Source: Thermohalobaculum sediminis (GTDB taxonomy: Bacteria; Pseudomonadota; Alphaproteobacteria; Rhodobacterales; Rhodobacteraceae). From it: 64,000 nt of DNA. A program made the position numbers and the translations under genes. Of the stretch, positions 26,259 to 34,983 are shown in pieces. The DNA lies in the NCBI RefSeq assembly GCF_023487995.1, contig NZ_JAMFKN010000006.1, positions 124,001 through 188,000 of the forward strand. The letters are read 5' to 3'. The notes below the pieces were generated by a model that searched no databases, had not been told where the DNA came from, and was given only the letters and a program-made list of their open reading frames with translations. Each line of letters begins with the position of its first letter. The stretch's first letter is position 1.

Positions 26259-26353
26259 ACGGCACGAAATATTTTTCGCGACGCTCCCACGGCTTCGCGG
26301 GCGTGCCTGCGAAACGGGCGGCCCCCGGACGGCCGCAGGGGAGGCGGGTATCC

Positions 26354-29131
<2,778 letters not shown>

Positions 29132-29231: not shown

Positions 29232-29399
29232 ATGGCCACATTCATCGTTCAGGGACGGTATTCCGAAGCCGCGATCAGGGGGTTCGTCAGCAAGCCGGAG
29301 GACCGCGAGAAAGCCGTGTCGAAGCTGATCGAGGCAGCGGGCGGTAAGCTCAAGGCCTTCTACGTCACCAGTGGCGAGAACGATGGTTGCTCAGTGTGA
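29232..29399 (+). pseudogene. GYD-domain protein, N-terminal half (interrupted)
   Basis: The start ATG has GGAGG upstream. The frame reads MATFIVQGRYSEAAIRGF..., a typical GYD-domain N-terminus, up to AFYVTSGEND at 29384. GYD proteins are roughly 95-110 residue alpha+beta (dimeric ferredoxin-like) cytosolic proteins of unknown function. After GEND the frame continues only four foreign residues (GCSV) to a stop. The matching second half (FLVIADAEDGDAV...) resumes at 29959 downstream of a 574-bp segment. The truncated 55-residue product would lack the second half of the fold. Confidence 0.8.
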
Positions 29400-29958
29400 G
29401 GTGGTCCCCGCGTCCTGCGTTACACGCAGTGAGTGTGAGGTTTGTCACAGCTAGGATCGCTGCATTCCGTTGACCCTGTGAGGATTGGGGGCGATGCTCT
29501 TTTTCTTCATCGGTCTGAGATCCCTCTGCGATCTCCCAGGGTTAGTCGCTCCCGCAGTCCGCTTTCGTATGGAGGGGACTATGGAAGCGATTAAGATCTT
29601 CTTGGTTGTCATGTCATGTTCGCCCGACGGTCTTTTCTGTCGCGACCTGTCGGATAATACGGCGTTCAATAGTCTGGATGCCTGCCACGCCGAGCGAGCA
29701 GAAACCTTGCGCGAGATGATGCAGACACACAGAGGCCGACTGGCTCTGGCGCGGTGTCAGTACGTTCTGGTCGAGCGGTACCAAGATGTGTCGAGGGCGA
29801 CAGGCGGCTGTTGCTGAGACTGCTATGTCGTGCCGGTTCGGTATGGCGCAGGCGCAATCGTCGAGGCCGTCACCGCTCTGGATCAAGGATTAAGCTCTTC
29901 TCTTCCGGTGATTGGCACGGCTCCCGCGTGGGTCAGTCTTTCACGGGAGCCGATCCGG
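29385..29958. mobile_element. Low-GC insert splitting the GYD gene; unclassified, no transposase
   Basis: About 574 bp lying exactly between the two halves of the GYD coding sequence (GAT at 29382-29384, TTC at 29959-29961). GC falls to about 45-62 % per 60-bp line against about 70 % outside. Contents: three direct TGTGAGG repeats at 29395, 29434 and 29477; a hairpin CTGCGT-TAC-ACGCAG at 29415-29429; a hairpin GAGATC...GATCTC at 29517-29535; a 78-residue reading frame at 29581-29817; and a 9-bp stem CGGCTCCCG/CGGGAGCCG at 29918-29952 near the right end. The ends share a weak inverted similarity (29389-29412 with 29925-29950, GCTC..GTGA..CGCG). No convincing target duplication was found; CGAT..GGTT appears at both borders. 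It is most like a non-autonomous element with subterminal hairpins. Confidence 0.6.
29581..29817 (+). CDS. Small Cys-rich hypothetical protein inside the insert
   Basis: 78 residues. The ATG is preceded by GGAGGGG at a good distance. The short hydrophobic N-terminus MEAIKIFLVVMSC is followed by six cysteines in all (13, 20, 35, 59, 77, 78), with a helical Arg/Glu-rich middle (CHAERAETLREMMQTHRGRL). The C-terminus is GGCC. It could be a short exported or membrane-associated disulfide protein. I do not recognise a family. Codon use is less GC-biased than in neighbouring genes, in keeping with transfer. The ribosome site supports translation; function is unknown. Confidence 0.5.
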   Translation: MEAIKIFLVVMSCSPDGLFCRDLSDNTAFNSLDACHAERAETLREMMQTHRGRLALARCQYVLVERYQDVSRATGGCC

Positions 29959-30138
29959 TTCCTGGTGATCGCCGACGCCGAGGACGGCGACGCGGTGACG
30001 GCCGCGATGCTCGCCGCCTCGGCGGGCGGCGCCATCGCCCACGGCGCTACGCAGCGGGCCTGGACCGGCAAGGACTTCAAAAAGATCTGCGAGAAGGCGG
30101 CGAGCATCGCTGGCGCCTACCGGGCTCCCGGCAAGTAG
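29959..30138 (+). pseudogene. GYD-domain protein, C-terminal half (interrupted)
   Basis: Continues the GYD fold from FLVIADAEDGDAVTAAML to the stop after YRAPGK, with host-like high GC and codon use. It is open to a GTG at 29830 inside the insert, which would give a 102-residue hybrid protein whose first 42 residues are insert-encoded. No ribosome site supports that start. Together with 29232-29384 it rebuilds an ordinary GYD protein of about 110 residues, which is why both parts are called one broken gene. Confidence 0.75.
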
Positions 30139-30207: not shown

Positions 30208-32508
30208 CTACGCGGCGGTCCGGCGTGCCGCCGTCTGCAATGCCTGCCACAGCTTCAGCGGGGTGTAGGGCGTCTCCAGCGGCTCTCGGTATCCCGCCCG
30301 CCACAGCGCGTCGAGCACGGCGAGCGCGGAGGCCGGGATGCCGCCGACCGAGCCGGACTCGCCGCAGCCCTTGACGCCCAGCGGGTTCGTCCTCGCCGGC
30401 ACCTCCTCGAAGGCGAGGTCGAACATCGGCACGTCGGCGGCGCGCGGCAGGCAATAGTCCATGAAGCTGCCGTTGAGCGGCTGCCCGGTCTCGGGGTCCC
30501 AGCGGGCCTCCTCGCCGATCACCTGGCCGATGCCCTGCACGATCCCGCCGTGCACCTGCCCGGCGACGAGGGCGGGGTTCACCAGCCGCCCGAAGTCGTC
30601 GACGATGGTGTAGCGCAGGATCTCGAGCGCGCCGGTCTCGGTGTCGATCTCGACCTCGCAGACATGCGCGCCGTTCGGGAAGGTCGAGCTCGACTCGACC
30701 TTGACCTGCCCCGCCGCGGCAATGCCGTCCGAGCCAGCCGCAAGCTCGGCGAGCGACACGGACAGGTCGGTGCCCGCGACGCGGAAGACGCCGCCCTCGC
30801 CCGGCAGGAACTCGAGATCGGCCGCGGACGCCTCGAGCCGGTCGGCCGCCATCTCCCGCGCCTTGTCCACCAGATCGTCCGAACCGGCGATCAGCGCCTG
30901 GCTCGCCATGATGAGCGAGCGCGAGCCCCCCGTGCCGCCGCCCGAGGGCAGGGCATCCGAGTCGCCCGGCATGACCCGGATCGCGTCGAGCGGCAGCCCG
31001 AGCCGCTCATGCGCGATCTGTGCCCATGACGTCTCGTGGCCCTGGCCCGATGACTGGGTGCCGACCCAGATGCGCAGGACGCCCGACGCATCGAGCTCCA
31101 TGCGCGCGTTCTCGCTGGGCTGGCCGCCGGTGCGCTCGAAGTAGTAGGCGACGCCGATGCCGCGGCACCGGCCGCGCATGCGCGCCTCGGCCGCGCGGGC
31201 TTCGAAGGTGTCGTAATCGGCGGCTTCGGTGGCGCGGGAAAGCACGGTATGGGTGTCCAGGCTGTCGAACACGAAGCCGCCCGCAGAGCGGTGCGGCACG
31301 CGGTCGGGCGTGAGCAGGTTGCGCCGGCGCAGCTCGACCCGGTCGATGCCGAGCTGGCGGGCCGCGGCCTCCATCAGCCGCTCGGTCGCGTAGATCGTCT
31401 CGGGCCGCCCCGCGCCACGGTAGGCGTCGGTCGGCGGGGTGTTGAGGAAGGCGCCGCGGACCTCGGCGTGGATTGCGCCGACGTCGTACATGCCGCCCAG
31501 CAGCGCCGCGGAAAAGGCCGTATGCACCCCCGCGCCATAGCTCGAATAATAGGCGCCGAGCCCCGAGACGGTGCGCATGCGCATGGCGAGACAGCGGCCG
31601 TCGGCGTCGAACGCGCCTTCGACGGTGCCGCGCATGTCGCGCCCCTGTGCGTCGGACAGGAAGCTCTCGGACCGCGAGCCGATCCACTTGACGGGCCGGC
31701 CCAGGTCGGCCGCGGCCAGCGCGCAGAGGCCGTATTCGGGGTGATCCATAAGCTTCATGCCGAAGGCGCCGCCGACATCGCCGACATGGACGCGCACCCG
31801 GTCGGCCGCCACGCCCAGAGCCCTCGCGACCTTCGCCCGCATGCCGTGAGCGCCCTGGCTGCCCAGCCAGGCCTCCCACCGGCCGGTTTCGGCGTCGTGG
31901 CGGACATTGATCGCGCGCGGCTCGAGCGAGTTGACGACGATGCGCTGGTTCAGCACCGGGGTCGAGACGATGTGCCGGGCGCGCGCGAAGGCCTCCGCTG
32001 TCGCCTCGGCGTCGCCGCAGGACCAGGTGTAGGCCAGGTTCCCGGGCGCCTCTGCATGGAGCTGCGGGGCGCCGGGCGCGAGTGCCTCATCGGGATCGAC
32101 CACCACGGGAAGCTCGTCGAGCTCGATTTCTGCAAGCTCGGCGGCGTCCTCGGCGGCGGCGCGGCTCTCGGCGACGACGAAGGCGATCGGCTGACCGACG
32201 AAGCGCACCATGCCCTCGGCCAGATGCGGCAGGACCACTGGCGCGGGGGTGGGGGAGAGGGGAAACTCGTTCGCCAGAGGCGCCAGCCGTCCCGCGATCT
32301 CGGCATGCGTCCAGGCAAGCATCACGCCCGGTGCCTCGCGTACGGAGGAGATGTCGATTCTCGTTATTCTTCCGTACGCTACCTGACTTCTCAGAACGAA
32401 GGCGTGAAGCTGGCTGGGAAGGTTGAGATCGTCCACATAGGACCCTTTTCCGGTCAACAGCCGGGTGTCCTCGAGCCGCCTCACCGGCTGGCCGATGCCG
32501 AATTTCAT
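30208..32508 (-). CDS. Xanthine dehydrogenase/aldehyde oxidase-family Mo-binding large subunit (orphan, form II type)
   Basis: 766 residues. Large subunit of the molybdenum hydroxylase family (CoxL/XdhB-like). The active-site loop reads AYRGAGRPE, the form II signature, not the AYxCSFR of true CO dehydrogenase. The molybdopterin-cytosine-dinucleotide-binding GQGHETSWAQ and the catalytic Glu in KGCGESGSVGG are present. Form II enzymes oxidise aldehydes or N-heterocycles; the substrate is unknown. No FAD or [2Fe-2S] subunit is adjacent, so partner subunits must come from elsewhere, possibly the cox operon at 54-58 kb. Start 32508 was chosen for its GAGGA ribosome site; ATG 32520 has none. Codons near 32345-32390 are unusually AT-rich (AGA, ATA, GTA, AGT). 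Confidence 0.93.
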   Translation of the reverse strand: MKFGIGQPVRRLEDTRLLTGKGSYVDDLNLPSQLHAFVLRSQVAYGRITRIDISSVREAPGVMLAWTHAEIAGRLAPLANEFPLSPTPAPVVLPHLAEGMVRFVGQPIAFVVAESRAAAEDAAELAEIELDELPVVVDPDEALAPGAPQLHAEAPGNLAYTWSCGDAEATAEAFARARHIVSTPVLNQRIVVNSLEPRAINVRHDAETGRWEAWLGSQGAHGMRAKVARALGVAADRVRVHVGDVGGAFGMKLMDHPEYGLCALAAADLGRPVKWIGSRSESFLSDAQGRDMRGTVEGAFDADGRCLAMRMRTVSGLGAYYSSYGAGVHTAFSAALLGGMYDVGAIHAEVRGAFLNTPPTDAYRGAGRPETIYATERLMEAAARQLGIDRVELRRRNLLTPDRVPHRSAGGFVFDSLDTHTVLSRATEAADYDTFEARAAEARMRGRCRGIGVAYYFERTGGQPSENARMELDASGVLRIWVGTQSSGQGHETSWAQIAHERLGLPLDAIRVMPGDSDALPSGGGTGGSRSLIMASQALIAGSDDLVDKAREMAADRLEASAADLEFLPGEGGVFRVAGTDLSVSLAELAAGSDGIAAAGQVKVESSSTFPNGAHVCEVEIDTETGALEILRYTIVDDFGRLVNPALVAGQVHGGIVQGIGQVIGEEARWDPETGQPLNGSFMDYCLPRAADVPMFDLAFEEVPARTNPLGVKGCGESGSVGGIPASALAVLDALWRAGYREPLETPYTPLKLWQALQTAARRTAA

Positions 32509-32685
32509 GACTGTCCTCATGTAAAGTTTTATGGCACAGTAACCGCGGGGACGAGTGCGTCAAGCCACGTGGTTGTGGCATTTTCGCAGCTGAGATGCGA
32601 GGTTCAGTTAGAGTTTCAACTGCGTGTTTTCGCTCGCAAATCCGGTTTGGTAGAGTGAGCGGAGCGAATCAGGGGTGGTTACGCA

Positions 32686-34983
32686 GTGTTTAAAGACGAC
32701 AGGATGATCTCGGTCCTGAGCGGGATCGTGCTGATGCTCGCCATCGGCACGCTCGTCCAGCGCGGCGATGTGGTCGCCGAGTTCTTCGCGGGCGAGCCCG
32801 AGCCGACCGTGCTGGTCAAGGATGTCGTCACCGTCGATGCCGACACCCTGACGCGCATCGATGTCCTCGCCAACGATACCGGCCTTAAGGACCGCGTCGG
32901 CCAGAAGCTGGTGGTTCTGGCCCAGCCCGAATGCGGCCGCGTCTTCGTGCAGGAGGGCGCGCTGCAATATCTGGGCGAGCGGCGCTGCCTCGCGACGCAG
33001 CGTGTGCTCTATGGCCTCGCGGGCGTCGACATCAAGGAGTCGGGCGAGGTCGCCATCACCGTTCGGGGCACGACGCCCCAGCCCGAAGCCGGGGACAAGG
33101 TCGCGGCACTGCGCGACGCCCCGACGCCCACGCCCGCAATCCCCACGCCCGCAACCCCCACGCCCGCAACCCCCACGCCCGCAACCCCCACGCCCGCAAC
33201 CCCCACGCCCGCGACTCCGGCGCCCTCTGTCTCGCGCGACCCGGCGCCCGCGACCTCGGCCCCGGCCGGGCTGGCGCGCGAACCCGCGCCGACCCGTCCC
33301 AGCCTGGGCTCGCAGGGGCTGGGGCGCGCATCGGGCGGGGCCGGTGCCGGCGATGCGCCGGCCGTTCCGGGCGTTGCCGGTGCTGGGACACCGGCGCCGG
33401 CTCCCGCGCCCGGCGTGCGCGCGCCATCGGCTCCCGACCTTGCGGCCGCACCTGCATCGCCGACCCTGCCGCGCGATGCGTTGCCCTCGGTGGCCGTCGA
33501 GAGCGGCTTGCCCGCGGCGGTGCCGTCCACGGCGCAGCCACAACTTGCCCTGCGCGCGCCGGCGAACCCCCTGCCGCCCGTCGCGGCGCCGACCACCAGA
33601 ACCGGCAATGCCACGAGTTCCGCCGTACCGGCGGCTCCGTCCGCCCCGACCGGAGCGGGCGTGGCCGCACCGGCTTCACCCGCGGCCCCGGCGCTCGCCG
33701 CGCTGTCCGAGCCGTCGGTTCCCGACATGCCCGGCACCCTCGGCGCGGGTCTCGAATCGCCCCTGATCGTGGCGGGGTCATCGCTCGCGGGCATCGGCGG
33801 GGCTTCGAGCGCTGAAGCGCCCGGGCGTCAGGCTCCCGGCGGCTTGGGCGAGGGTGTCGCGACCATCGCGCTCGCTCGCGTCGAGGTTCCCGATGCCGTG
33901 GCGGCCCCGGCCGCCGCCGAGGCGCGGGATCTCGCGGTGGATCAGGCGACGCGCGACAGCACGCTGAGCGCGCCGCGCCTCGCGCCGGAGATCGATGCGA
34001 CCGACGGGCAGCAGATCACCATGTTGGAGCCCTCGACGGGCCTCGGCGAGATCCTCACCTTCGGCGATCCGCTCACGCTCAGGCCGATCGACACGTCCCT
34101 GCCGACGCTTGCGACGCCGACCGAGACGGCGGGGTCCTCGACCCCCGACCTGCGCAACGCGGCGGTCGAGCCGTCCGGCGCGAACCTGCCTGCCGCCGCG
34201 CCGACCGCCCAACCCGGCGCGCTGCCGGAGCCGGAGCGCGTGGCGGCGCTGCCGCGCGTCGACCAGACCTGCGCGGTGCCGCCGTCGATTACGCTCGACA
34301 TCCGCCCCGCGGGCGAGACCGAACTGGTGATCACCTCGCCCTGCCATGCCGATTCGATCGCGCAGCTCTCGTACGAGGGAATCGATCTTGGCATCCGCAT
34401 CGATCGCGGCGGCCAGGGGGCGATCTCGGTGCTCGGCTTCCGCAGCTCGGCCGACGCGGTGCTGGCCTTCGCTGATGGAGAGACGCTCGAGTTCAGCCTG
34501 CCCTTCACTGGCACCGACCGGATCGAGCGCGTGGCGCTGACCTGGGACGCGCCGGTGCTGCTCGAGCTGCACGCGATGGAATTCGGCGCATCGCCGGGTG
34601 CCGCGGGGCACATCAACCCCGCCAATCCGGGCGATTTCCGCGAGGTTCGCCGTCGCGGTGGCGGATATCTGGCCAGCTATGCACCGGTCGAGGGCGTCGG
34701 GCAGAGCGTTCAGATCTATTCTCACTGGCTGCGTCGGGGTGGCGCGGCCGGAGTGGTGAAACTGTATATCGACTTCGCGAGCCGGCATCGCGAGCATCAG
34801 GAAGGAACGTGCGGCAATGGCCCGCTCTCGCGGCCCGCCTTCACGATCATCCGCTCGTCGCGCGGCCGGATCGAGATGCCGGTCAGCCGGCGGCTTGCCT
34901 CGATCGAGTGCGAGACCGTCGACGCCATGCAGAATCACCTGATCGAAGCAGCCGTGCGCGACATCATCATCTCGCAGCGCTGA
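32686..34983 (+). CDS. Membrane-anchored Ig-like, Pro/Ala-rich envelope protein
   Basis: 765 residues from GTG 32686 (ATG 32704 is possible). Domains in order: one N-terminal membrane segment (SVLSGIVLMLAIGTLV, about 9-24); a bacterial Ig-like domain with the VDADTLTRIDVLANDTG pattern (about 48-130); a 300-residue Pro/Ala/Thr linker beginning with six PTPAT-type repeats; and a C-terminal globular beta-rich domain (about 525-765) with paired cysteines (C527, C546 and two more near the end). The topology suggests an inner-membrane anchor with a long periplasm-spanning arm. The next gene, a PstS-like/OmpA fusion that should grip peptidoglycan, follows 53 bp later on the same strand, so the two probably work together. 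Function is unknown. Confidence 0.82.
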   Translation: MFKDDRMISVLSGIVLMLAIGTLVQRGDVVAEFFAGEPEPTVLVKDVVTVDADTLTRIDVLANDTGLKDRVGQKLVVLAQPECGRVFVQEGALQYLGERRCLATQRVLYGLAGVDIKESGEVAITVRGTTPQPEAGDKVAALRDAPTPTPAIPTPATPTPATPTPATPTPATPTPATPAPSVSRDPAPATSAPAGLAREPAPTRPSLGSQGLGRASGGAGAGDAPAVPGVAGAGTPAPAPAPGVRAPSAPDLAAAPASPTLPRDALPSVAVESGLPAAVPSTAQPQLALRAPANPLPPVAAPTTRTGNATSSAVPAAPSAPTGAGVAAPASPAAPALAALSEPSVPDMPGTLGAGLESPLIVAGSSLAGIGGASSAEAPGRQAPGGLGEGVATIALARVEVPDAVAAPAAAEARDLAVDQATRDSTLSAPRLAPEIDATDGQQITMLEPSTGLGEILTFGDPLTLRPIDTSLPTLATPTETAGSSTPDLRNAAVEPSGANLPAAAPTAQPGALPEPERVAALPRVDQTCAVPPSITLDIRPAGETELVITSPCHADSIAQLSYEGIDLGIRIDRGGQGAISVLGFRSSADAVLAFADGETLEFSLPFTGTDRIERVALTWDAPVLLELHAMEFGASPGAAGHINPANPGDFREVRRRGGGYLASYAPVEGVGQSVQIYSHWLRRGGAAGVVKLYIDFASRHREHQEGTCGNGPLSRPAFTIIRSSRGRIEMPVSRRLASIECETVDAMQNHLIEAAVRDIIISQR
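33127..33216 (+). repeat. 15-bp tandem repeat x 6 encoding PTPAT units
   Basis: Six head-to-tail copies of CCCACGCCCGCAACC, nearly identical at the DNA level, inside the Pro-rich linker. Near-perfect DNA identity points to recent slippage, so the linker length is likely to vary between strains. Confidence 0.9.

Follow-up and report, generated by a model that had tools for sequence, protein, structure and literature searches.

Insertion sequences and MITEs are short DNAs that split a gene at a single site. Elements of the IS200/IS605 type, like the non-autonomous forms derived from them, make no target duplication and have an inverted repeat close to their right end, integron gene cassettes consist of one small open reading frame (ORF) followed by an inverted repeat, and introns of groups I and II break a gene at one position with no loss of coding sequence. 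Insertion of unidentified DNA into accessory genes is also a known kind of event. We describe here a 574-bp insert that resembles these elements in the respects just named, and that interrupts a gene of the GYD family (PF08734), for which a search of the literature with the term 'GYD domain' returned a single passing mention. In our reading, a dispensable GYD gene was probably inactivated by the insertion of a single short piece of foreign DNA of lower GC content.

The GYD gene lies in two parts on the plus strand of the window (the whole 64-kb stretch of DNA that was analyzed). The 5' part, at positions 29232–29384, encodes residues 1–51 and was recognized from the sequence, the ORF list and a Pfam match; the 3' part, at positions 29959–30138, encodes residues 52–110 and was recognized from the ORF list, a Pfam match and alignment. 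When searched separately against PF08734, for which the gathering cut-off is 31.4 bits, the N-terminal half scored 39.4 bits over model positions 1–49 and the C-terminal ORF scored 18.9 bits over positions 49–90. The joined halves scored 71.4 bits over positions 1–90 of the 91 in the model, and thus make up a complete member of the family. In an alignment of the joined protein with more than 30 unbroken relatives, no gap opens at the break, and in the relatives the next domain residue follows directly after Asp51. This alignment places the break precisely at the boundary of the Asp51 and Phe52 codons, with 574 bp gained and 0 target bases lost; the ends of the insert are uncertain by about 1 base, since either side may have supplied the last base of the Asp codon.

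A match to the joined GYD protein was found in 63 of 391 genomes of the order, the source genome included, at a threshold of E 1e-5. The split is confined to the source genome: in the other 62, every match listed runs without interruption, and the best matches span residues 1–109 or 2–110 of the joined protein. The source gene is therefore interrupted after residue 51, whereas the examined relatives are continuous. The first-pass annotation had described one GYD protein in two halves, broken by a discrete insertion inside a conserved fold, and had named relatives with the same split as the finding that would speak against this; we looked for such relatives and found none, and its account of the break, of the halves and of where they lie is confirmed. 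With an unsplit gene in every relative examined and a join that is codon-exact, sequence comparison gives good support for a break that is derived and that arose in a discrete insertion event.

We considered whether the split gene might still function, either through intron-like removal of the insert from the RNA or through separate translation of two halves that then assemble. Such a reading would fit the break between codons and the absence of stops and frameshifts from both halves in the ORF list, but no relative shares the split and the local signals argue against it. The frame of the N-terminal half enters the insert for four codons and reaches a stop at 29399. The frame of the C-terminal half is open upstream as far as a GTG at 29830, and inspection of the sequence found no evident ribosome-binding site for it. 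The insert also differs from group I and group II introns, in that no Rfam family reached its gathering score anywhere in the window, none of relevance appeared at E values up to 5, and no reverse transcriptase or endonuclease fragment was found when six-frame translations of the insert were searched against Pfam, which returned no family. The whole insert folds just slightly better than shuffled sequences (z −1.25). We therefore regard continued function of the split gene as very improbable. Under the preferred reading of an inactivated gene, the two halves would now constitute a pseudogene. Since the N-terminal half stops after four codons of insert sequence and the C-terminal half has no start signal of its own, no GYD protein should be made, and the freedom of both halves from stops and frameshifts suggests that decay either has not begun or is recent.

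The genomic setting bears on whether loss of the gene could be tolerated. The gene order in the window is secA (26336–29131, plus strand), the GYD gene in its two pieces, and then a molybdopterin aldehyde oxidase/xanthine dehydrogenase gene (30208–32520) on the strand opposite to secA and GYD. The spacer between secA and the oxidase gene is 1076 bases in the source genome. The genus is sampled by five genomes, the source genome among them, and a comparison of the locus downstream of secA in congeners, as the first-pass annotation had suggested, found that in the closest one (SecA 89% identical) the corresponding gap is about 80 bases and holds no GYD gene. In the other congeners the oxidase gene was not seen adjoining secA in the stretches compared, one of which stops at a contig end. 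The SecA C-terminal motif was absent within about 1.5 kb of every GYD relative checked. Because the closest congener lacks GYD at this locus and the GYD genes of the relatives checked do not lie near secA, GYD is accessory at this site; and since, in addition, a match is lacking from most of the order's genomes, its loss is likely to be tolerable. The closest congener has a GYD paralog elsewhere in its genome (L022, G149:C12:6778-7101) with 32% identity. No second GYD match was found in the source genome at E 1e-5.

The insert, which has no assigned strand, occupies positions 29385–29958; it is delimited by the gapless alignment and set apart by its GC content and its lack of matches. Its GC content of 58.2% falls at the 2.6th percentile of host windows of 574 bp, which average 69.8% (sd 4.4%) over the 464 kb sampled. 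The dinucleotide profile is ordinary, 23% of the host windows deviating at least as much. The insert had been described as AT-richer than its flanks and clearly different in codon use; the first part of that description stands, and the second is not established, as codon use would have to be measured in a reading frame and none is proven for the insert. The only other stretch of the window with a GC content as low (58–59%) is at 32201–32925, and takes in the beginnings of the oxidase gene and of the gene that follows, with the spacer between them. An ORF of 765 amino acids at 32686–34983 contains a tandem PTPATPTPAT repeat, belongs to no Pfam family, and has a counterpart of 71% identity in the closest congener.

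Searches for relatives of the insert were negative throughout. A second copy was not found in its own genome, where only short chance matches occurred. The nucleotide search in relatives that the first-pass annotation had proposed yielded only short chance fragments among 149 genomes of the family, and searches of 337 genomes of the class, phages, plasmids and E. coli genomes gave no match. A 17-base pattern from the right end of the insert matched three viral contigs with no similarity past 17–18 bases; these contigs were rejected as relatives, the matches being attributed to chance in a very large collection in the absence of extended similarity. Because the collections sample close relatives thinly, the failure to find matches speaks only weakly for novelty, and absence of matches alone does not make the insert an element.

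The absence of the insert from every close relative would also be expected if foreign sequence had been joined into the contig by assembly error and the real genome lacked it. We consider this explanation improbable. The insert sits some 153 kb into a contig of 282 kb, it is unique sequence rather than a repeat of the kind that misleads assemblers, and the GYD gene resumes at the exact codon across both junctions; the quality ratings of the genome are 100% for completeness and 0.04% for contamination.

The one positive feature of the insert is absent from the first-pass annotation. This is a candidate gene of 78 amino acids on the plus strand (29581–29817), recognized from the sequence, with a good ribosome-binding site, GGAGGGGACT, ahead of its ATG. 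It shares a frame with the C-terminal half of GYD, a single TGA lying between them, and the predicted protein has cysteines at residues 13, 20, 36, 62, 77 and 78. GC content by codon position is 0.58/0.46/0.67, which looks like that of coding DNA. The ORF is the longest in the insert, and its length was equalled in 21% of shuffled sequences. No family at a meaningful E-value was found in Pfam, PHROGs, NCBIfam or PADLOC, and there was no match in a protein search of 296 genomes of the family or in a tblastn search of plasmids and phages. Matches in the 391 genomes of the order (E 0.003–0.05) proved to be short, scattered or broken by stop codons and were set aside as unconvincing. Scans of genomes and viral contigs gave no confirmed match, a 19-base pattern around the start codon occurred in no viral contig, and a search by cysteine spacing over 0.78 Mb of DNA found no convincing relative. 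A structure modeled from the single sequence had a mean pLDDT of 51, too weak for a fold search. The ORF may be a real small gene.

We next consider whether the insert moved as an element. It could be a whole or remnant non-autonomous mobile element, with a small gene as its passenger; such an element would make no target duplication and would be served by enzymes acting in trans. The compact size, the exact insertion with no loss of target bases, the one ORF with its ribosome-binding site and an inverted repeat close to the right junction are all consistent with such an origin. This repeat, GGCTCCCG...CGGGAGCC (29919–29951, plus strand, from the sequence), stops 7 bases short of the right junction; it may form a terminator stem that lacks a T tract, and was not among the results of the terminator scan. 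Inverted repeats are present near both ends of the insert, but both end regions, including that around 29919–29951, fold no better than shuffled sequences. The best end-to-end match as a terminal inverted repeat is 5 bases, attained by 91% of shuffles, and as a target-site duplication the junctions share just an imperfect CGAT/GGTT stretch, attained by 36–75% of shuffles. The insert thus differs from classical insertion sequences and MITEs: beyond the level of chance it shows neither terminal inverted repeats nor a target duplication, and it has no second copy. It differs from IS200/IS605-type elements in its single copy, perhaps in its ends, which do not fold beyond shuffles, and in a genome without a Y1 transposase (PF01797), the search for which matched the positive controls in five genomes; the Y2 transposase (PF04986) had no match in the source genome and none in the control genomes either. 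As for integron cassettes, excision at the G|TT present at both junctions would remove 572 bp and shift the GYD frame, whereas an in-frame join needs removal of 574. With no second genomic copy and no relatives, a mobile element or its remnant is an unlikely though serious alternative. Far less likely still is its more specific form, a compact mobile cassette of undescribed type with one cysteine-containing small gene, exact insertion without target duplication, and machinery in trans. The suggestion of the first-pass annotation that the insert is an undescribed element accordingly found no support: it is a single copy with end repeats at chance level, no kin were found, and there is no sign of movement.

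The preferred explanation, inactivation of a dispensable GYD gene by a foreign fragment, would have the fragment enter by illegitimate joining and not by the action of a transposase, with the 78-amino-acid ORF as at most a passenger gene. We prefer capture since the insert has neither a second copy nor ends like those of an element. Exact insertion without target loss would also be expected of a transposase or recombinase, and this counts against capture. The source genome lacks the Ku protein, making Ku-dependent end joining an unlikely route, so that capture would need another.

The split points to a GYD gene that this bacterium can do without. The orphan ORF remains for later searches, and the insert would gain importance only with a second copy that has the same ends.
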